Source of the DNA: Bradyrhizobium sp. 200 | GTDB lineage: Bacteria; Pseudomonadota; Alphaproteobacteria; Rhizobiales; Xanthobacteraceae | Length of the DNA stretch: 64,000 nucleotides | Reading direction: 5' to 3' | Assembly: GCF_023100945.1 (NCBI RefSeq) | Contig: NZ_CP064689.1 | Location: forward strand, 6,740,001-6,804,000 | Shown: positions 9,775 through 55,680 of the stretch, in pieces | How positions within the stretch are numbered: position 1 is the stretch's first letter | How the letters are laid out: each line of letters starts with the position of its first letter | Made by a program: the position numbers and the translations under genes | Notes under the pieces: generated by a model | What the model was told of the DNA's origin: nothing | The model's database searches: none | Seen by the model: only the letters and a program-made list of their open reading frames with translations

Positions 9775-9805
9775 TTGAACCTGACGCTGCGTTAGGTTGT
9801 AGGAA
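9775..9805 (+). promoter_or_regulatory. NolA/MerR-type promoter repeat, copy 2 (class A)
   Basis: The -35 is TTGAAC, the spacer is 19 bp (CTGACGCTGCGTTAGGTTG) and the -10 is TAGGAA. A truncated nolA start follows six bases later, in the same arrangement as at the intact nolA gene. Confidence 0.6.
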
Positions 9806-10141: not shown

Positions 10142-11155
10142 ATGGACGCCCTCAAATCGATTATTGGCAAGCTCGCCAGTGGCGCCACGTTGACCTGCGA
10201 GGAGACGGCATCAGCTTTTCACAGCATGATGTCGGGCGAAGCCACACCCTCGCAGATGGGCGGACTTCTGATGGCGCTGCGGGTGCGCGGCGAGACGGTG
10301 GACGAAATTACCGGCGCCGCTTCCGCGATGCGGAGTAAGATGCTGCGAGTCAATGCGCCGCACGATTCCGTCGACATTGTCGGCACTGGCGGCGACGCTT
10401 TGGGCTCGGTCAACGTGTCGACCTGCGCCGCTTTCATCGTCGCTGGTGCTGGCGTACGGGTGGCCAAACATGGCAACGGCGCACTGTCCTCGCGCTCGGG
10501 CGCTGCTGACGTGTTGGCGTCGCTCGGTGTGAGGATCGACATCACCCCTGAAGACATCGCTCGCTGCGTGCGCGAAGCCGGCATCGGCTTCATGTTTGCG
10601 CCGGTCCATTATCCCGTTATGAAGCACGTCCGCCCGACCCGGCTTGAGCTTGCGACCCGCACCATCTTCAATCTGCTCGGACCGCTGTGCAATCCGGCGG
10701 GTGTCAAGCGACAGATAGTTGGGGTGTTTTCGCGGCAGTGGGTGCTGCCTTTGGCGCAAGTGTTGAAGACTCTTGGCGCTGAGTCGGTGTGGGTGGTGCA
10801 CGGCTTGGACGGACTTGATGAGCTCACCTTGACCGGCCCGACCTTTGTTGCCTCGCTTGAGACCGGCGAGATCCGCACCTTCGAAGTGACCCCCGAAGAG
10901 GCCGGTCTCCCCCGCTGTGCCAGCGAGGGACTGAAGGGCGGCGATGCCGATGCCAATGCAGTGGCGCTGCAAAGCGTGCTCGACGGCACCCCAAGCCCGT
11001 ATCGCGATATCGCGCTTCTCAATGCGGCCGCGGCATTGATCGTGGCCGGCCGTGCCAAAACCTTGAAGGAAGGCGTCGCTCTTGGGCAGAAATCGCTTGG
11101 TAGCGGTGCCGCGGCGGCGCGGTTGAAACACCTAATCGCAGTATCCAACGCTTAA
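10142..11155 (+). CDS. trpD: Anthranilate phosphoribosyltransferase
   Basis: A 337-residue TrpD that joins anthranilate to PRPP, the second step of tryptophan synthesis. Visible motifs are [17 protein letters not shown] (PRPP-binding glycine loop, about residues 78-95), [17 protein letters not shown], the [11 protein letters not shown] segment and HGLDGLDE. Length is normal. It precedes trpC by 16 bases, so the two are probably co-transcribed. No trpB/trpA or trpE/G accompanies them, which is unusual and suggests a dedicated supply of indole-3-glycerol phosphate or an accessory copy. Confidence 0.93.
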
Positions 11156-11171
11156 CAGCCGAGCCTAACCG

Positions 11172-11990
11172 ATGTCCGATATCTTGACGAAGATCAAAAC
11201 CTACAAGCGCGAAGAGATCGCAGCCGCCAAGCGCGCCTTGCCACTTTCAGAGGTCGAAGCGCTGGCGCGGCAGGCCTCGCCCCCGCGGGGTTTTCTCGCC
11301 GCCATCTGCAACAAGCACGCAGCAGATGAATATGCGCTGATCGCCGAGATCAAAAAGGCCTCTCCCTCCAAAGGCCTTATCCGGAGCGACTTCGATCCGC
11401 CCTCGCTAGCCAGGGCCTATGAAGGGGGCGGCGCGGCCTGTCTGTCGGTGCTGACGGACACGCACCTCTTTCAGGGGGACCCTGATTTCATGGTCGCGGC
11501 GCGCGCGGCAACATATCTTCCGGTGCTGCGCAAGGACTTCTTGTTCGACACCTATCAGGTGGCAGAAGCGCGCGCTCAGGGGGCCGACTGCATCCTGATC
11601 ATCATGGCGGCGCTCGAAGACGAAGCCGCTCGTGAGATAGAGGCTGCGGCCATGGCCCATGGTATGGATGTGCTGATCGAGGTCAACGACGTCGACGAGA
11701 TCGATCGGGCGCTAAAACTTCGCTCGCCGATGATCGGCATCAACAACCGCAACCTGCGCACCTTCGAGACCTCTCTTACGATCAGCGAAGCGCTGGCGCC
11801 GCTCGTACCGAAGAATCGCGTGATCGTCGGCGAAAGCGGTATCCGCTCGCAGGGCGATGTTCTGCGTCTTTCGCGGCTTGGCATTTCGACCTTCCTGGTC
11901 GGAGAAAGTCTGATGCGGCAGGCTGATGTGAGGGCGGCGACCCGCGCGCTGCTCTCGCGCGAGGCGGCGGTTTCAACCGGAGCGCAGTGA
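11172..11990 (+). CDS. trpC: Indole-3-glycerol-phosphate synthase
   Basis: A 272-residue TIM-barrel TrpC that forms indole-3-glycerol phosphate from CdRP. Motifs: [10 protein letters not shown] (about 57-66), [20 protein letters not shown] and VGESGI with the phosphate-binding end. Length is normal and the frame intact. It forms an operon with trpD. Remnants of its C-terminal half are found at 25.97-26.33 kb, with stop codons, in the decayed second copy of this region. Confidence 0.93.
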
Positions 11991-12476
11991 TGCGCGCAAA
12001 ACCTCCCAGCCAAGCTCCCTTCGCTCCGAATACTGCTCGGCGTCGCCGCTGTTCGACGACGGCTATTCAGCATTCAGAAGGTTCGCGGAACTCAATCACG
12101 TCAGCCCGGAGCCGTGGTCTCCCTTGTTTTGAGAGGGCCGATAAGTGCAGCCGGTGATGGAGAGGCGAAATGCACCTTTTGAACGAAATAGCGGTGCCCT
12201 AGCCCGGGGATTTTAACGGCAGAATCATGGAAAGTTTTCAAAAATCGAGTCGGAGATTCGTCAGATGAGTGCGGTCTATGCTCGGAGCAGCGCGCTTTTC
12301 GGGCTGCAGCATGCGTACCGCATCAATCCTGCCGAGCTGATCTAGGCCAAAGCGGCGCCTGACAGATCGACCGCCGCTCAGATCGCCAGAGCCGGTGCGA
12401 AGCGCCCCACCGAGATCATCGAAAAGATAGGCGGGTCGGTGAATGCGCTTCGCTAGAGCGCCAAAGGAGGCAAACA

Positions 12477-13016: not shown

Positions 13017-13541
13017 ATGAGCTGCCAATCGCCTCCCGGGATAAGCGATATTCGGTCAACCGAGGCGATCGAGTTTCGCCAAGCCATGCGAAATCTGGCG
13101 AGCGGCGTGTCCATTGTAGCGACCGGAACGGCCGACGGACGGCGCGGCTTAACTGTCAGCTCTATTACCTCGATCTGCATGGAGCCTCCCTGCCTGCTGG
13201 TCGGCATTAATGCCAGTTCCGAAACTCACGACGCGATACTGGCCAACGGCACTTTTGGCGTGAGTCTTCTCGGCGGCAATCAGCAGGACCTCGCACTGCG
13301 TTTCGCCGGCCGGCATGGCGCAAACGGTGTCCATCGTTTCGATACAGCGCCATGGGATCAGGGCGTCCTTGACGTACCAGTACTGCAAAGCGCAGTTTGT
13401 GTGCTCGAATGCGTCTTGCATCACCACCAAATCATCGGCACTCATGGGATCTTTATCGGCCGGGTTGTCGCGACGCGAGCAGCTCAAGGCAATCCACTCA
13501 TCAGCTTCCGTGGCGAGCTTCGAACGCTACTGTACGGCTGA
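13017..13541 (+). CDS. Flavin reductase-like protein (FMN-binding split barrel)
   Basis: A 174-residue protein of the flavin reductase-like family (FRD component of two-component monooxygenases). Visible motifs: FRQAMRNLASGVSIVATG, GLTVSSITSICMEPPCLLVGI and ANGTFGVSLLGGNQQDLALRF (seen in parts), with the C-terminal HHHQIIGTHGIFIGRV strand. It would use NAD(P)H to deliver reduced flavin to a partner oxygenase. A plausible partner is the luciferase-like monooxygenase at 62.2 kb, although it is 49 kb away. A frame-broken copy lies at 27.07-27.54 kb. Confidence 0.85.
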   Translation: MSCQSPPGISDIRSTEAIEFRQAMRNLASGVSIVATGTADGRRGLTVSSITSICMEPPCLLVGINASSETHDAILANGTFGVSLLGGNQQDLALRFAGRHGANGVHRFDTAPWDQGVLDVPVLQSAVCVLECVLHHHQIIGTHGIFIGRVVATRAAQGNPLISFRGELRTLLYG

Positions 13542-14204: not shown

Positions 14205-14235
14205 TTGAATCGCACGTGGCGTCAAATTGTAAGAT
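14205..14235 (+). promoter_or_regulatory. NolA/MerR-type promoter repeat, copy 3 (class B)
   Basis: The -35 is TTGAAT, the spacer is 19 bp (CGCACGTGGCGTCAAATTG) and the -10 is TAAGAT, followed by the class-B tail CTCAAAACAGGTGGCGCC. It lies about 90 bases upstream of the GcrA-like pair, as copy 7 does for the second GcrA-like pair. Confidence 0.6.
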
Positions 14236-14888: not shown

Positions 14889-16424
14889 ATGATTGATCTC
14901 TGCACGCTGATTGAGCGCAACGCGGCGTTCTCTCCCGACAAGCCCGCGATCCGTTTCCAGGGCGAGACCTTGAGCTACGCGCTCTTCAATCAACGGATCG
15001 AGCAGGTCGCGCGCGCCCTAAAAAGCCAGCTCGGTGTGGAGAGAGGCGATCGCGTCGCGATCCTCAGCCTTAACCGGCCTGACCATCTGGTGCTGCTCTA
15101 TGCGTGCGCGCGGCTCGGCGCAATGCTCGTGCCACTGAACTGGAGGCTTGCGCTCGCCGAGCAGCTCTTCATCCTTTCCGACGCCGCCCCCAGGGTGCTG
15201 GTGGTCGAACAAGCCTTCGAGGCACTCCTGCCGGTGCTGGCGGAGCAACTGCCGGATATCTTTGTCGTCGGCTTGGATTTTGTGCCCCTCGGCGGAAGTA
15301 AATGGGATGGCCTGCTGAACCGAGGGCGCGGCGATGGTCGCAATCCGCACACGGACCTGTCCTGCCCGCTTCTGATCGTCTATACCTCGGGCACCACAGG
15401 GCGGCCGAAAGGGGCTGTGCTGCGCCAAGAGGCGTTGCTGTGGAATGGGGTTATGAGTCAGCACATGCATGGCCTCACCTCGGCTGATCATGTCTTGACA
15501 GTGTTGCCGCTGTTCCACGTGGGTGGCCTCAATATCCAGACGACGCCAGCGTTGCATCACGGCGCGACGGTAACGATCCACACGCGGTTTACGCCAGAGG
15601 CGACGCTTGCTGCGTTCGAGCGCGAACGGCCAACTCTGACCGTGCTGGTGCCTGCCACGATTCAAGCCCTGACCGAGCATCCCCAGTGGTCGACCACCGA
15701 CCTGACCTCACTCAGAGCAATTTCCACCGGCTCAACCATGGTGCCGCAGCACCTGATCGAACGCTTTGTCACACGCAGCGTACCAGTGCTGCAGGTGTAT
15801 GGATCGACGGAGACCTGCCCAATTGCTGTCTATACGAGGCTCGGCGGTGATCTCTCACGTGAGGGTACGACTGGCCTGCCCGGCCTTCTCTGCGAAGCGG
15901 CAATCATCAATGATGGGCGCAACAAACTGCCGCCAGGCACCCTGGGCGAGATCGCCGTGCGCGGGCCTAATGTCTTCTGCGAATATTGGGGCAATCAAGA
16001 AGCAACGCGCGAGGCGCTGCATAACGGCTGGTATCACACTGGCGACATCGGCCGCCGCGATGCCGATGGGTATTTTTGGGTCCATGATCGTAAGAAGAAT
16101 CTGATCATTTCCGGCGGGGAAAACATTTATCCGGCGGAAGTCGAGCGTGTGCTTGTGGAGCATCCCGATGTTGCAGAATGCGCTGTCGTGGGTCGGCCCG
16201 ATTCGCGTTGGGATGAAGTACCAGTCGCCTATGTGATCAGGCGGTCGGGCGCGCGGATTGAAGCGGAAGCACTGAACGCGCATATGCAGTCGCAGCTCGC
16301 CCGTTTCAAAGTGCCGCGCGAAATCATTTTCACGGAAGAATTGCCGCGAACGGGGTTGGGCAAGATCCAGCACTTTATGCTGAAAGCGCTCGATGCGCGA
16401 AGCCAGCAGGGAGGCACCAAATGA
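14889..16424 (+). CDS. AMP-dependent acyl/aryl-CoA ligase
   Basis: A 511-residue adenylate-forming enzyme, expected to activate a carboxylic acid with ATP and transfer it to CoA or a carrier. Motifs: IVYTSGTTGRPKGA (phosphate loop, about 165-178), YGSTETCPIAVY, HTGDIGRRDADGYFWVHDR, NLIISGGENIYPAEVE and the C-terminal catalytic lysine in GLGKIQ. The N-terminus starts cleanly at ATG 14889 after GGAAG. Its stop overlaps the start of a second, truncated ORF (ATGA). It heads the plus-strand arm of the candidate small-molecule locus at 14.9-21 kb. Substrate unknown. Confidence 0.9.
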   Translation: MIDLCTLIERNAAFSPDKPAIRFQGETLSYALFNQRIEQVARALKSQLGVERGDRVAILSLNRPDHLVLLYACARLGAMLVPLNWRLALAEQLFILSDAAPRVLVVEQAFEALLPVLAEQLPDIFVVGLDFVPLGGSKWDGLLNRGRGDGRNPHTDLSCPLLIVYTSGTTGRPKGAVLRQEALLWNGVMSQHMHGLTSADHVLTVLPLFHVGGLNIQTTPALHHGATVTIHTRFTPEATLAAFERERPTLTVLVPATIQALTEHPQWSTTDLTSLRAISTGSTMVPQHLIERFVTRSVPVLQVYGSTETCPIAVYTRLGGDLSREGTTGLPGLLCEAAIINDGRNKLPPGTLGEIAVRGPNVFCEYWGNQEATREALHNGWYHTGDIGRRDADGYFWVHDRKKNLIISGGENIYPAEVERVLVEHPDVAECAVVGRPDSRWDEVPVAYVIRRSGARIEAEALNAHMQSQLARFKVPREIIFTEELPRTGLGKIQHFMLKALDARSQQGGTK

Positions 16425-16522: not shown

Positions 16523-16595
16523 TACGCTGCCGCACGTTAATCGTAGTGCGGCTTGCGCTTCCGTCGCAATATGCCAAGTACCACGGAGCTCGTTG

Positions 16596-17912
16596 ATGCC
16601 GCGGATCCTAATTATGAACGCCGGTACCGCCCAAATGTCGGGTGCCGATCTGACGGCAATCCAACTTTCGCTTGCAGCCAAGTCGGCCTGGCGCTCCGTA
16701 TGGTTTGCGCAAGCGGGCGACCTAATTGTCTCTCCGGTAGCGATCCCAAATGACCTGCTTCACTACGTTGGCGCGACGCTAAGGTTCGACCCATCGACTG
16801 TCCTGGTGCTCGTGCCAGAAAACGCGGACGAGACCCGAGTCCTTTGTGACTTCACTCTGCAGTCCAATACAATTGTGGAACAAATCCGCCGCCACATTCG
16901 TGAGAAAACACATTGGGAACTATGTGCTTGCTATTCTACTGAAGGCGTTGCGCGCTTGGCGGCAATGCTCGGCATACAGCAGAACGGGGACGACTTCGCT
17001 CTGCAGCGAGGCCCTGATCTATTGAATCGTAAAAGCCACTTCCGTCAATTGGCAACAAGCGTCACGCTTCCGTTGCCCAGCGGATGCATAGCAACAAGCT
17101 CAGAAGAATTGTTCAGAGCGGTCAACTCCCTAAAGCTTGAAACCGGCAGCGTCATTGTAAAGTTAGATAATGGAGCCGGCGGGGTTGGAAATGTCATATT
17201 AACTGGCAAGGAGAGCGCTCCACTACCTGGGGCAAGGGAGACGCGGCGGGTCCTTTGGCCGTCGTTTGATCCTGATGCACTTTGGTCTGAGATGACAACC
17301 CCCTCCTGTAAAACAGTCGTCGTAGAATCATACCACTTGGCCCGTTCTCTGTTCTACCTCGAGTTTGAAATCGAGGAAAATGGTTCAATCACATACGTCA
17401 ACAGTGGAAACATACGTCTGCATCGAAGCGAAGATCGGGCCGAAAGAGCTCTCGTCTGGACTGGTCTAGAGCTTCCGAGCGACCTGAGCAATGAGCAGTA
17501 CTCGACCGCTTACGCGCACGCCTATCGATTTGTGGAGCTTGCGCGGACATTGGGTTACCGCGGAATGATCAACATAGATGCCATTTTCTCGATCGACGGG
17601 CGGCTGCTGTTTAATGAAGCGAACGGTCGGTGGGGCGGAGGCTCGGTACTGCACAGCATTGCTGACCGGTTGCTCGGAGCGGACTATTCCCATTCCTACG
17701 TGATTTCATCTGTGCGGAATGTCCGACTAAACTCCCTCCGAACGGCGCTTGATTGCTTTGTCGATGAAGGATTGCTATTTGATAGCATACACAAGGAAGG
17801 CGTTATTCCGCTTGCCGCCGACCAAGAGGCAGGCACGGTGGAGTGTCTCGTGATCGCGCGCGACAGGCTGGTGGGCCGGAATTTCGAGCATCGATTATTG
17901 AGGATAGTCTGA
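16596..17912 (+). CDS. ATP-grasp ligase with pre-ATP-grasp domain
   Basis: A 438-residue protein. The N-terminal ~130 residues look like the pre-ATP-grasp/Rossmann part. The ATP-grasp core follows, with the lysine strand and glycine-rich loop SVIVKLDNGAGGVGNVIL and the metal-binding end INIDAIFSIDGRLLFNEANGR (seen in pieces: D...FNEANGR). The family joins a carboxylate to an amine or thiol through an acyl-phosphate, often in small peptide or modified amino-acid synthesis. Start ATG 16596 follows GGAG; a TTG one codon earlier is possible. It sits 170 bases after the CoA ligase and may be its partner. The minus-strand oxygenases face it about 1 kb away. Confidence 0.75.
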   Translation: MPRILIMNAGTAQMSGADLTAIQLSLAAKSAWRSVWFAQAGDLIVSPVAIPNDLLHYVGATLRFDPSTVLVLVPENADETRVLCDFTLQSNTIVEQIRRHIREKTHWELCACYSTEGVARLAAMLGIQQNGDDFALQRGPDLLNRKSHFRQLATSVTLPLPSGCIATSSEELFRAVNSLKLETGSVIVKLDNGAGGVGNVILTGKESAPLPGARETRRVLWPSFDPDALWSEMTTPSCKTVVVESYHLARSLFYLEFEIEENGSITYVNSGNIRLHRSEDRAERALVWTGLELPSDLSNEQYSTAYAHAYRFVELARTLGYRGMINIDAIFSIDGRLLFNEANGRWGGGSVLHSIADRLLGADYSHSYVISSVRNVRLNSLRTALDCFVDEGLLFDSIHKEGVIPLAADQEAGTVECLVIARDRLVGRNFEHRLLRIV

Positions 17913-18886: not shown

Positions 18887-19564
18887 CTAGCTAGCCGACC
18901 GCACGCGAGCGGAATGGTCTTCGACTATCCGGCGGTTCGCACCGTCGTATTTTGAACAAAAGTAGACGAGTGACCGACGTTCCCCCGCGTGCACCTGCCT
19001 TACCTCATGCCAGAACCTACATGTTGTGATAAGCACTGTTCCTAAGTGTGGACGAAACACTTGGAGTTTACGGTCGGTTGGATACACGACGAACTCACCG
19101 CCCTCGAACTCTGTCGCGAGCTGAACAATTACAGAATACTCGAAGTCGGGGTCGCTCTCAGCATCCAAATGGATACCAACGAAGGACCGAGGCGGCATGC
19201 GATGCACTTGGCATCGACGAATCACGTACTCCGATGACGCTCCGAAGATCCTTCTAAGCGCAGAGACCCGCTCTTTTCTTTCCAGCAGTTCAATGATCTG
19301 CGCTGAAGCTGTACCATTCACGTTGCTAGGATTATGGCCGGCGTGATCTAGCCGCACTCGTTTCACAAAAACATTGTGACAATCGCCGGCATCTCCCTTC
19401 CGAACCTGTTCTTCTGGAATATCGGACTGCAGCTGATCGATCCTCGTCAACTCGTCTTTGGTGAACAGCGTATCGGGGGCAATCAGGACCGTACCTTTAT
19501 CTGCCAGCTCTGCACGGTATTTCGCGATGGCATCTTCTGAAAGCAGACCAAGTTTATCACTCAT
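18887..19564 (-). CDS. 2-oxoglutarate/Fe(II)-dependent oxygenase
   Basis: A 225-residue prolyl-hydroxylase-type oxygenase. The iron triad is visible as H132-x-D134 (FVGIHLDAE) and H186 (CRFWHEV). A basic residue in HAGERRSLVYF (about R196/R197) is placed to bind the 2-oxoglutarate carboxylate. Strands EYSVIVQLATEFEGGEF complete the double-stranded beta-helix. These enzymes hydroxylate, desaturate or chlorinate small molecules or peptides. It lies 37 bases downstream of the haem-oxygenase-like/GFA fusion gene and is probably co-transcribed from the NolA-type promoter at 20966-20996. Substrate unknown. Confidence 0.8.
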   Translation of the reverse strand: MSDKLGLLSEDAIAKYRAELADKGTVLIAPDTLFTKDELTRIDQLQSDIPEEQVRKGDAGDCHNVFVKRVRLDHAGHNPSNVNGTASAQIIELLERKERVSALRRIFGASSEYVIRRCQVHRMPPRSFVGIHLDAESDPDFEYSVIVQLATEFEGGEFVVYPTDRKLQVFRPHLGTVLITTCRFWHEVRQVHAGERRSLVYFCSKYDGANRRIVEDHSARVRSAS

Positions 19565-19601
19565 TGTGCGCGCCTTTCGGATTCACTCAAATTCGACTCT
19601 T

Positions 19602-20876
19602 CTAATCCGCCTGCAACGAGCGGATCGCCAGATCCCAATTCTGGCCGTCGAAATCATCTATTCTTATGCTTTCGATCGTCGCTCCATCTAGGCATCGAAC
19701 ATTTACGCTGAATCCTGAAGGATTCGATCGCGGCCGATAGAATGGCTTGATGCCGCAAACCCGACAAAACGTATGCCGAGCGATGTTCTTATTGAACTTG
19801 TATGTAGTGAGGAGTTCTTCGCCGCATTCAATCCTGAGCTTGTCGTCGGCAACGAGCATGTGCAAAAATCCAGACATTTCGCAGATTGAGCAATTGCACT
19901 TCACTGCAGAAATCTCTGCTGGCGCTCGTACGTAGAACTTGACAGACCCACAGTGACAGCGGCCACTGTGTTCAACCTCCGGCCGACCATCTCCGTCAAG
20001 CGAATCAATTCCGACTAGATTGCGGCACCACTCTAAGCTGAGATCATACGCCCGGTCGAATTCATCCAAGAAACGGCTATTGCAGTCGGCAGGGACCAGT
20101 TCGCTAATGAGCCTGCTTGTCATCTCTCCGTGATATTTCTCCGCAGGATCCTCGCCGCCAACATGGACCTGGAAATACTCAAGATCGTTAGATCGAGCAT
20201 CAAAGGTTATGACTAAAGTGGTCCAAAGTGCCTGGATCATTTCCGCAGCATGTAGCTCAAAGGCAACCATGTAGGCGCAGCGCATTATGGGGTCTCTCGA
20301 CGACAAGCCATGATATAGCGCACGCAAGTAACGGCTCGTTCTGGCGCTGTAGTTAGGCTGTATTTCTCGGCCAAGTAGGCGCCACGCATCTCGTTTAAAG
20401 AGCTTTGAGTGGAAGTTTTCTGTGTTCAGAGTACTGGGTAGCGCAGCGTTGCCGCCTTGTAGAACCCGACTATGACCTCCCGTTTCATCCCAGCAGATAA
20501 AATTTGCGACCACACTGGTCAGCTCAACGTCCCTCGGGAGGTCTCGATTGCGATGTATTGCGTCGAATATGAGATCCCTTTGCGATCCCGCCTGCAGGTA
20601 CGGGAACGCTTGTGACATCGCCAAGTATTCTGGCAGCAGACTGGCAACCCGATCTTTGGACATCTCCGCAGCGAACGGATGGGGACCAAGCAGAGCCCGG
20701 GCTCGGCTAGCCAAGTGCTCGCCAACTGGTATCTCTGAAGGTTGTTGCAGCTTAGAAGGAGAAGCTTGGGATAACGTCATTCGAACCCGGGCATGCAGAG
20801 AGAGAGATAGAGAATTCAATGGCTTGGCAACGAAGCAATACGCAAGCTTAGCGAAAACACCTAAGCCCGGGGACAA
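19602..20876 (-). CDS. Haem-oxygenase-like (HDO-type) domain fused to a GFA zinc domain
   Basis: A 424-residue two-domain protein. The N-terminal part (about 60-290) has the helical pattern of haem-oxygenase-like metal oxidases, with candidate metal ligands in WDETGGH (E131, H135), AFELHAAE (E207, H209), FQVHVGGEDPAEKYHGE (H238, H249) and FLDEFDRAYD (D271, D274). The C-terminal part (about 300-420) is a GFA/CENP-V-type zinc domain with CxC (GRCHCGSV), CxCxxC (CNCSIC) and CxxC (CRVCG). I do not know this fusion as a characterised enzyme. The listed start is TTG; an ATG at 20780 would give 392 residues. A perfect NolA-type promoter lies 90 bases upstream, and the Fe(II) oxygenase gene follows. 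Confidence 0.7.
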   Translation of the reverse strand: MSPGLGVFAKLAYCFVAKPLNSLSLSLHARVRMTLSQASPSKLQQPSEIPVGEHLASRARALLGPHPFAAEMSKDRVASLLPEYLAMSQAFPYLQAGSQRDLIFDAIHRNRDLPRDVELTSVVANFICWDETGGHSRVLQGGNAALPSTLNTENFHSKLFKRDAWRLLGREIQPNYSARTSRYLRALYHGLSSRDPIMRCAYMVAFELHAAEMIQALWTTLVITFDARSNDLEYFQVHVGGEDPAEKYHGEMTSRLISELVPADCNSRFLDEFDRAYDLSLEWCRNLVGIDSLDGDGRPEVEHSGRCHCGSVKFYVRAPAEISAVKCNCSICEMSGFLHMLVADDKLRIECGEELLTTYKFNKNIARHTFCRVCGIKPFYRPRSNPSGFSVNVRCLDGATIESIRIDDFDGQNWDLAIRSLQAD

Positions 20877-20965
20877 GTTTCAGCGCGCCCTTTCCTTGCC
20901 GCTCGAGCCTGATTTGCCATGAGCGATAGACGCTTGCGTCGCATAGCGTTGATCTTCGCTTTTCC

Positions 20966-20996
20966 ACGCTACAACCTCACGCTACGTGAGATTCAA
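20966..20996 (-). promoter_or_regulatory. NolA/MerR-type promoter with perfect operator dyad, copy 4
   Basis: Read on the minus strand, the -35 is TTGAAT, the 19-bp spacer is CTCACGTAGCGTGAGGTTG and the -10 is TAGCGT. CTCACG-TAG-CGTGAG is a perfect inverted repeat, the best operator of all copies in the window. It points at the haem-oxygenase-like/GFA and oxygenase operon. Confidence 0.65.
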
Positions 20997-21320
20997 GCAC
21001 TTAATTACATATCCATACCGATGATGTGCAGCTGATGGTGAAAGCAGTGATCATCACCGAGCGCCGTCGCCGCACTTCTCTTCCAAATTATTGCAAAGCT
21101 GACGTGGAGCACCATCAGTAGTGACCGCTCAACATTCTTGTTCGCATGCATTTCGCGATACGTCGTGATGGAATGATATTAGAAAGCCCACCAATTGCTT
21201 TGGTAACGTCTCAAAGATCCGCTTGTCCCTTCTTTCTGCCACGTTTGCCTCCAAAGAAGTGTTCGAGACTTGCTGATCGCGCGCTTCGCGATCGGGGTTA
21301 GCGCTTGTGAAGGGAATTCC

Positions 21321-23669: not shown

Positions 23670-23700
23670 TTGAATCGTACGTAGCGTCAGATTGTACGGT
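23670..23700 (+). promoter_or_regulatory. NolA/MerR-type promoter repeat, copy 5 (class B)
   Basis: The -35 is TTGAAT, the spacer is 19 bp (CGTACGTAGCGTCAGATTG) and the -10 is TACGGT, followed by a tail similar to the other class-B copies. It occupies the same relative place as copy 1 at 2436 in the collinear duplication. Confidence 0.6.
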
Positions 23701-51931: not shown

Positions 51932-51962
51932 TTGAATCGCACGCTGCGTCAGGTTGTAAGCA
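51932..51962 (+). promoter_or_regulatory. NolA/MerR-type promoter repeat, copy 8 (class A)
   Basis: The -35 is TTGAAT, the spacer is 19 bp (CGCACGCTGCGTCAGGTTG) and the -10 is TAAGCA. A decayed nolA start follows. Confidence 0.6.
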
Positions 51963-52095: not shown

Positions 52096-52328
52096 ACCGT
52101 GATGGCGTACTTCAAAACTAGGAGCGATTTCCACGCCCGGTCAGCTCTCCTTCGCGCGGACCGACGTGCTTCCGATCGAGTACGAGATCTGGGGCGCTAT
52201 AATTTTGGGAATGGCTGGGCCCGATAGCGATCCCTGATGGCCAGCAGATTCCGTTGCGGACCTCGGGTCTTGGCGAGGAGAGTGAAACTGTCACAGGAGT
52301 CGCCGCCGCTTTCAACAGAGTAACAGAC

Positions 52329-54382: not shown

Positions 54383-54413
54383 TTGACTCTTACGCGACGT
54401 CAGGTTGTAGCCT
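54383..54413 (+). promoter_or_regulatory. NolA/MerR-type promoter repeat, copy 9 (class A)
   Basis: The -35 is TTGACT, the spacer is 19 bp (CTTACGCGACGTCAGGTTG) and the -10 is TAGCCT. It is followed by a broken nolA copy. Confidence 0.6.
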
Positions 54414-54978: not shown

Positions 54979-55680
54979 ATGACCAAAGCTACACCACGAA
55001 GGCGTCGATGGCGCATTGGCGAACTTGCAGAGGCTACCGGCGTAACGGTACGCACTCTGCATCACTACGAGCACATAGGGCTATTAAGTGCGGCGGAGCG
55101 CACCGATGGTGGCCACCGAATGTACGACCGCGACAGTGTACAACGAGTGAACCAAATTCTAGCACTGCGTGAGCTTAGCTTCTCACTTGAGGAGATCCGC
55201 GGAGCCATGGAAGGCAGCTCTTCGCTTACCGACCTGTTGCGCAACCACTTGGAGCGCATCGAAGTTCAAGTCGAACGTACGACCCTGTTGCGAGATCGTT
55301 TACGTAACATGACCACGGATGACGAAGTACATGTCAGTGTGGATGAGCTACCTGCGACGTTAGATGCAATGTCGCGGGTTGAGAAACGCGCTCAAACGCC
55401 CCGATGCAGATGCGCCTCAGACCCAAATCGAGAGGAGCGGTGGCAACGGATCCACAAGGAGTTGCGCGATTGTATGATTAGAGGCGAGCATCCTTGCAGC
55501 GAACGGGTCACTGCTGTGGCCCTTCAAGCGCGCTCGCTAATCACCGAAGTCGCAGGAGCGGAATCAACAGCTTCAACGATACTGAAAGTTCTTGCGCGAT
55601 TGAGCGCACCTCGCAATTTGGCTGGCTGGGATCCCGGACTAATGCAGTATCTCGATCTTGCACTTGCCGCCTTACAGTGA
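54979..55680 (+). CDS. nolA: NolA, MerR-family nodulation regulator
   Basis: A 233-residue NolA. The N-terminal MerR helix-turn-helix (about 10-35: RIGELAEATGVTVRTLHHYE) is followed by the wing (GGHRMYDRDSVQRV) and a coiled-coil helix. The C-terminal domain of unknown ligand follows (with a Cys pair in RCRCAS). In B. japonicum NolA limits nodulation on certain hosts and acts through NodD2, and three protein forms arise from alternative starts. Internal ATG codons are present here as well. Intact, and the only full copy among at least five loci. Confidence 0.93.
   Translation: MTKATPRRRRWRIGELAEATGVTVRTLHHYEHIGLLSAAERTDGGHRMYDRDSVQRVNQILALRELSFSLEEIRGAMEGSSSLTDLLRNHLERIEVQVERTTLLRDRLRNMTTDDEVHVSVDELPATLDAMSRVEKRAQTPRCRCASDPNREERWQRIHKELRDCMIRGEHPCSERVTAVALQARSLITEVAGAESTASTILKVLARLSAPRNLAGWDPGLMQYLDLALAALQ

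Follow-up and report, generated by a model that had tools for sequence, protein, structure and literature searches.

A nodulation-linked Bradyrhizobium operon for a haem-oxygenase-like/GFA fusion protein and a 2-oxoglutarate oxygenase, with an ATP-grasp partner gene

Haem-oxygenase-like dimetal oxidases (HDOs) and ATP-grasp ligases are encoded together in several described pathways. In the beta-ethynylserine (Bes) pathway of Streptomyces cattleya, which includes 2-oxoglutarate (2OG) enzymes, the HDO is BesC and the ATP-grasp enzyme is BesA. In the mangotoxin cluster MboA-E an HDO stands beside ATP-grasp ligases, and belactosin, in the available text of its description, joins an HDO, a nonheme iron enzyme and ATP-grasp ligases (PMC10764440). 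HDO genes near an ATP-grasp gene form a recognised class, counted at 1447 in at least 25 cluster types in the accessible part of the source (PMC13185094), and the locus described here belongs to that class as there defined, an HDO gene lying near an ATP-grasp ligase gene. It is found in a 64,000-nucleotide stretch of Bradyrhizobium sp. 200 (contig NZ_CP064689.1, positions 6,740,001 to 6,804,000), hereafter the window, and comprises an operon for a protein fusing an HDO domain to a GFA zinc domain and for an Fe(II)/2OG oxygenase, together with a convergent gene for a PreATP-grasp ligase-like protein. Because this ligase accompanies the operon, the system is larger than two genes. On balance we favour the view that operon and ligase gene together encode a single small pathway of the HDO/ATP-grasp type that is specific to symbiosis. 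The carriers probably produce a small molecule, so far undescribed, in root nodules or their surroundings.

Both genes of the operon are present on the minus strand where a sequence-only reading of the window had placed them, the fusion gene first and 37 bp between the two (Table 1). That reading gave the fusion protein 424 residues, counted from a TTG at 20876, which adds a 32-residue leader; the ATG start is favoured because deposited relatives (P0003, P0005) are 392 residues long, and residue numbers here follow the 392-residue form. In the C-terminal third of the protein the GFA family (PF04828) is matched at 47 bits (cut-off 24.3), and Cys 275, 277, 295, 297, 300, 339, 342 and 363, including the conserved zinc ligands of the family, are invariant in all 42 aligned proteins longer than 330 residues. 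The corresponding part of the AlphaFold model matches PDB 3fac and, weakly, Gfa. The N-terminal part of the same model, built with 102 aligned sequences (pLDDT 90), adopts a predicted seven-helix haem-oxygenase fold resembling a CADD-like protein, BesC, PolF and HrmI. Of ten relatives scanned for PF14518 (Haem_oxygenas_2), six match at E<1e-3, one of these above the cut-off, and four have no match. By these matches and the predicted fold, the N-terminal domain is modelled as HDO-like. Since the two halves of the model match HDO structures and 3fac/Gfa, the domain reading made from sequence was right, and no assignment of the N-terminal domain to another fold without metal ligands was obtained.

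The candidate metal site is strongly conserved. H124, D131, E175, H206, E214 and H217 are invariant in 102 of 102 sequences from several phyla, H177 likewise, and D98/E99 are constant in the 101 rows having a residue there. Aligning the HDO family by hhalign to three individual PF14518 proteins was unsuccessful; in the coarse mapping through Pfam coordinates used instead, H124, E175, H206, E214 and H217 fall near canonical HDO positions. D131, seven residues past H124, could by its position stand in for the canonical glutamate, and the six residues, a predicted 3-His/3-carboxylate set, could bind metals. HDO spacing can vary, as the MboA ligands Glu86/His89 and His172/Asp176/His181 illustrate in the accessible text (PMC13185094).

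The second protein matches 2OG-FeII_Oxy_3 (PF13640) at 40.8 bits (cut-off 27), and H132-x-D134, H186 and R196, which we take to be the 2OG-binding arginine, are invariant in 12 of 12 aligned proteins. The intact H-x-D...H triad read from the sequence is thereby borne out, and with the arginine it places the protein in the Fe(II)/2OG superfamily. The product of the convergent gene scores 88 bits with the PreATP-grasp family in Pfam and 19.6 bits with the BesA equivalog, whose cut-off is 750.

The distribution of these genes ties them to nodulation. Across 265 Bradyrhizobium genomes, one per species, the fusion is matched in 78, all among the 135 nodC-positive genomes, and in none of the 130 without nodC; presence was called at E<=1e-40 for the fusion, 1e-100 for nodC, 1e-60 for the ligase and 1e-20 for nolA, and the calls depend on these thresholds. 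Within the genus, homologues are thus confined to nodC-positive genomes, and the situation that would have told against a symbiotic role, homologues always standing alone and outside symbiotic islands, did not arise. Only pieces of the fusion are found in five of the 78: it is split in G011, G092 and G191, and only the GFA end was found in G006 and G087. The ligase occurs in 77 genomes, 76 of which also carry the fusion (76/78 of the fusion-bearing set). It accompanies every unbroken fusion match (73/73, in G099 as a fragment with a stop) and is absent from two of the five genomes with pieces (G011, G092). The sole genome with ligase and no fusion, G079, has a 41% match similar to a second copy in G073. 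One genome-collection scan gave 66 named loci, 50 from Bradyrhizobium and 16 from elsewhere; HDO and ATP-grasp genes both fall inside the fetched stretch in 38 of the 50 and fixA in 36, the ATP-grasp and acyl-CoA ligase counts in loci coming from tblastn within limited fetched stretches. The 2OG gene follows the fusion directly in 49 of the 50, and also in 30 of 30 loci from the 265-genome scan, a set that includes the window and may overlap the named one. Among 398 genomes drawn from the phylum, the HDO appeared only in Bradyrhizobium (three genomes). A single scan of viral contigs (query P0108) and a search of plasmid records with P0118 found no member of the HDO family, and with P0001 the 30 best of 186 plasmid matches all hit the C-terminal part.

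Symbiotic control of the operon is robust, and the window lineage seems to have swapped one regulator for another, because orthologues show sigma54/NifA sites and NifA dependence while the window has a NolA-type promoter. A sigma54 site scoring at least 11 of 12 precedes 30 of the 50 named orthologues (8 of 2000 shuffles), with TGT-N10-ACA 50-160 bp upstream in 23 of those 30; six more orthologues score 10 and 14 score below 10. Eleven of these 14 low scorers are at least 84% identical to the HDO part of the window, and L077, which has a NolA-type operator, is one of the 14. In the window lineage itself the best -24/-12 match is 9 of 12, which is chance level, and no TGT-N10-ACA is present. 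In nodules of a B. diazoefficiens nifA mutant, blr2041 changes by log2 -4.2 and blr2042 by log2 -4.8, a drop of about 18-28-fold, no nifH-mutant value being listed (PMC4926349, Table 3). The latter is the named USDA 110 relative of the 2OG protein, and blr2041, from its position before blr2042, would be the HDO-GFA gene. The 500-bp leader that separates the NifA promoter from the HDO gene was inspected by eye in 16 loci, and no conserved peptide or small open reading frame (ORF) was seen there.

Of the loci fetched, only three have a NolA-type operator at the HDO-GFA operon: the window (L001) and the pair L005 and L077, which may be a single strain; it is a lineage-specific promoter and not the conserved promoter of the operon. 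In the window it lies within a 271-bp module that has a second copy in the genome, and the homologous sequence shared with other strains ends at a CTCTCT repeat immediately ahead of the HDO-GFA gene. CTCTCT/GAGAGA repeats lie at window positions 20797-20814 and again at about 23300, the former marking where the upstream sequence of the window's relatives diverges, as if it were a recombination point for promoter exchange. The sequence-only proposal that this chemistry is part of the nodulation programme thus stands for its symbiotic setting and does not extend to NolA control as a general rule.

In the proposed pathway the HDO domain would bind two metals through the six predicted ligands and oxidise its substrate, an amino acid or a short peptide, with O2. 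Next, the fused GFA domain, carrying zinc and probably also a thiol (glutathione, for example), may hold a one-carbon (C1) or thiol-reactive oxidation product; the fusion itself suggests built-in handling of such a product. The Fe/2OG enzyme, assigned to its chemistry class by motif, would hydroxylate or further oxidise what results, and the ATP-grasp enzyme could join it to an amino acid. Expression would be driven by NifA/sigma54 in most orthologues examined and from the NolA-type promoter in the window lineage. A bolder version is possible and distinctly tentative: a nodule product shared by dozens of Bradyrhizobium species, in which GFA captures formaldehyde or a thiol-reactive fragment released by the HDO, so that C-C cleavage and C1 disposal share one chain, with a switch between NifA and NolA made by exchange of promoter cassettes.

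Several observations weigh against a single pathway of this kind. The N-terminal ~260 residues have no Pfam match at E<=1, PF14518 included, and in a PDB profile search the GFA half found 3fac, plus two chance-level chains, and the HDO half nothing. On helix 1 the canonical glutamate seven residues ahead of the first histidine is missing and there is no E-x6-H; H124-x6-D131 has the reversed order of the canonical pair, and in alpha3 the stretch from the first histidine to Glu-x2-His contains an insertion. Owing to this reversed order and the insertion the metal site is only a candidate. The structure prediction called for by the sequence-only reading returned a confident fold, conserved GFA cysteines and six invariant His/Asp/Glu residues, the first pair of them in non-canonical order. 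Gfa, a different GFA protein, is reported to bind glutathione and not to catalyse S-hydroxymethylglutathione formation, and a carrier role has been proposed for it (PMC4682968); given that suggested role, the fused GFA as catcher of a reactive fragment is attractive and still conjectural. The 2OG gene was found in none of 14 other HDO-bearing genomes, in a scan without positive control that covered 14 of the 16 loci from outside Bradyrhizobium, and looks like a Bradyrhizobium-specific part of the system. Six loci from cyanobacteria, actinobacteria and others (L034, L086, L089, L093, L096, L097) pair an HDO with a partner of about 110 residues and show no GFA or ligase match. Operon and ligase operon differ in promoter in most loci examined. 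Finally, loss of fusion and ligase is not always joint, because G006, G087 and G191 keep the ligase although their fusion is split or reduced to the GFA end found, and the G099 ligase is the fragment already mentioned. The HDO partner protein in L034, the single member scanned, is a tRNA_bind domain, a hint that this branch of HDOs may act on aminoacyl-tRNA.

Relatives beyond the genus repeat the combination in other arrangements. HDO, GFA and PreATP-grasp-like proteins are encoded by separate genes that occur together in Legionella (L085, L087), Oligoflexia (L088) and Frankia (L091, spread over about 9 kb), and in Roseateles (L090) an HDO-GFA fusion lies beside ATP-grasp and nonribosomal peptide synthetase genes. 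The L085 block adds a desaturase, a weak circularly-permuted-ATP-grasp match, a 2OG-Fe_Oxy_2 enzyme, a short-chain dehydrogenase/reductase and a Cys/Met-type pyridoxal-phosphate (PLP) enzyme; L087 and L088 hold BLAST relatives of several of these genes. At E 1e-3 NCBIfam had no match for the Legionella HDO, PreATP-grasp, circularly-permuted-ATP-grasp-like, 2OG or GFA proteins. Beside GFA in Legionella stands a second, divergent threonyl-tRNA synthetase gene (L085 17396-19366, L087 12387-14294), 43% identical to the other copy, an arrangement as in self-resistance to a threonine analogue. Another Bradyrhizobium genome (L100) has a distinct canonical PF14518 HDO gene beside ORFs that, judged by eye, resemble ATP-grasp and methyltransferase genes, possibly a second HDO/ATP-grasp cluster.

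These loci bear on what the HDO oxidises. An alternative to the favoured pathway that is unlikely but still worth keeping in view is a tryptophan/indole branch: the substrate of the HDO would be tryptophan or a (halo)indole amino acid, supplied by trpD-trpC of the island, with conjugation of the product by the AMP-ligase and the ATP-grasp enzyme. The trpD/trpC genes share the island block and the NolA-type promoter (22/22 loci), and the window block has a flavin-reductase-like gene; no halogenase is found among the window ORFs scanned, and the loci of Legionella, Oligoflexia, Frankia and Roseateles show no match to trpD. Close behind the Frankia HDO lies a Trp_halogenase-family gene (11029-12330, 302.7 bits), in a block that also has a radical SAM gene, and a BLAST relative of it (1362-2723) is about 7 kb from the Roseateles fusion, which hints that the substrate handled by those clusters is halogenated or aromatic. 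However, a carrier-protein gene adjoins the Frankia halogenase-family gene, and PF04820 enzymes act on other substrates too. AetD and SktA are described as tryptophan HDOs in the accessible text of PMC13108848.

Fatty-acid chemistry, with a fatty acid as substrate of an UndA-like HDO and the AMP-binding enzyme as acyl-CoA ligase of the same route, is improbable; it would agree with the acyl-CoA ligase-like gene that adjoins the ATP-grasp gene in many loci, and with a fatty-acid desaturase gene next to the HDO in L085, with relatives in L087 and L088. A self-sacrificing protein of the CADD type, converting a residue of its own into an aromatic amine or cofactor precursor, is quite improbable: CADD and the CADD-like protein are the best structural matches and Tyr151 and Tyr202 are invariant in the HDO alignment, but sequence identity is only 13-16%, and to our knowledge GFA fusion, ATP-grasp and 2OG linkage are not features of CADD. 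Least credible, and very improbable, is a non-biosynthetic module by which bacteroids meet redox or formaldehyde stress, with GFA active and HDO catalysis lost, for although NifA control places the operon in nodules, GFA is named for formaldehyde chemistry and G006 and G087 show only the GFA end, the ligand candidates are invariant over 102 sequences from several phyla and the ligase accompanies all 73 unbroken fusions.

The NolA-type promoters merit attention of their own. That of the operon is the most symmetric of six promoter-like sites in the window, as the sequence-only reading had claimed, and contains the only CTCACG-N3-CGTGAG copy there with 0 mismatches. A 19-bp spacer between -35 and -10 with the operator between them is the MerR arrangement. 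A loose scan for the operator (three mismatches) was rejected: with 43 window matches against 41.9 expected, loose matching is worthless, and specificity came from the fixed -35/-10 context. The wider -35/operator/-10 pattern, at up to three mismatches, has one window match against 0.08 expected. In the genome of 9.49 Mb the family pattern matches ten times, each time inside the 0.52 Mb from 6.742 to 7.264 Mb, and a reversed control gives no match. Four of the family sites lie beyond the window at 7.06-7.26 Mb, one of them, by eye, before a gmd-/epimerase-like pair (L117). At up to two mismatches the motif precedes the ligase by no more than 3.2 kb in 35 of 38 named loci, and the remaining three end too close to it. 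Every locus that extends far enough upstream has such a promoter at the ligase operon; a reversed pattern gave 0/38 and shuffles 0/380. Within 600 bp of trpD it is present in all 22 named loci with enough upstream sequence.

Of the 265 genomes, 131 carry the motif, and nolA is matched in 128 of these; the motif lacks a nolA match in G037, G079 and G133, and nolA lacks the motif in G216. Three nolA-positive, nodC-negative genomes carry the motif. Eight nodC-positive genomes (G046, G048, G049, G114, G148-G150, G264) have a short nolA match, about residues 7-130 of 233, and no motif, which would fit a regulon lost with its regulator. A simple rule is countered by 12 genomes that still have the motif although a stop interrupts their nolA match, which ends at residue 152-175. 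Because motif and nolA mostly co-occur but exceptions exist, NolA is the likely regulator, and the sites constitute, as far as sequence can tell, a candidate NolA regulon that includes the nodD-like gene, nolA and trpDC.

Table 1. Features of the operon, its partner genes and the NolA-type promoters in the window
Feature	Position	Strand	Details
HDO-GFA fusion gene	19602..20780	-	392 aa from ATG 20780; AlphaFold model pLDDT 90.2, pTM 0.71
HDO domain	20007..20738	-	residues 15-258; fold match, conservation, rough mapping to PF14518 positions
GFA zinc domain	19617..19979	-	residues ~268-388; Pfam, PDB 3fac, conservation
Fe(II)/2OG oxygenase gene	18887..19564	-	225 aa; H132, D134, H186, R196; Pfam, PDB 6n1f
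MerR/NolA-type promoter of operon	20966..20996	-	TTGAAT, perfect operator CTCACGTAGCGTGAG at 20976-20990, 19-bp spacer, TAGCGT
Promoter/leader module, 271 bp	20814..21084	-	97% identical (263/271) to second copy at ~6.663 Mb, same genome
PreATP-grasp amino-acid/peptide ligase-like gene	16593..17912	+	convergent with operon; weak BesA and PGM1_C matches
AMP-binding (acyl/aryl-CoA ligase-like) gene	14889..16424	+	ahead of ATP-grasp gene; not retained in all species
NolA-type promoter (1 mismatch) before ligase pair	14205..14231	+
Six near-identical NolA-type promoters	2436-2462, 9775-9801, 20970-20996, 23670-23696, 51932-51958, 54383-54409
NolA-type promoter before trpD/trpC	9775..9801	+	trpD 10142+, trpC 11172+
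trpD	10142	+	NolA-type promoter ahead
trpC	11172	+	behind trpD
Flavin-reductase-like gene	13017-13541		in window block
NolA-type promoter before nodD-like gene	51932..51958	+	gene at 52254+
nodD-like gene	52254	+	NolA-type promoter ahead
NolA-type promoter upstream of nolA	54383..54409	+
nolA	54979..55680	+	MerR-family regulator; presumed cognate activator

The published dependence on NifA, together with the restriction of all 78 carriers to nodC-positive genomes, suggests an overlooked small molecule of nodule bacteria. Its enzyme set (HDO-GFA, 2OG, ATP-grasp) is small and open to expression and assay, and the promoter analysis yields a concrete candidate NolA operator and a testable NolA regulon. 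In a literature search that mostly left subscription journals outside, no published description of an HDO-GFA fusion or of the operon's function was found, in keeping with the sequence-only reading, which knew of no described system with this fusion; the operon's locus tags were met in one paper, in a table. The same search found no defined NolA operator or regulon, including in the available text of PMC9927474 and PMC5596368.

Set beside the known systems, the locus shares parts with each. The window promoter fits the nolA promoter type TTGAAT-N16-TTGTA published for nolA/nodD2 control in Bradyrhizobium, and differs in its palindromic operator and regulon, which were not found in the literature searched; in the accessible text of the 2017 survey, a preliminary screen saw no conserved NolA site upstream of nodD2 (PMC5596368). 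CtCADD and the CADD-like protein have the highest fold similarity to the window HDO, with a different order of helix-1 ligands; we know of no CADD fusion or operon of this kind. The mangotoxin cluster includes the MboB reductase and the MboE deiminase, which were not searched for in the window, and its available description mentions no 2OG enzyme or GFA fusion (PMC13185094). In belactosin and hormaomycin, BelK and HrmI are HDO N-oxygenases and BelL and HrmJ nonheme iron enzymes, the ATP-grasp ligases belonging to belactosin; the likeness is one of enzyme classes, and a GFA domain is not mentioned there. From Bes, whose HDO and ATP-grasp pair it resembles, the locus differs in the distance of its ligase from the BesA cut-off, in that the window ORFs scanned include neither a halogenase nor a PLP enzyme, and in the fusion of its HDO to GFA. 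Against this background, operon and ligase are read as a variant of the HDO/ATP-grasp amino-acid pathways under symbiotic control.

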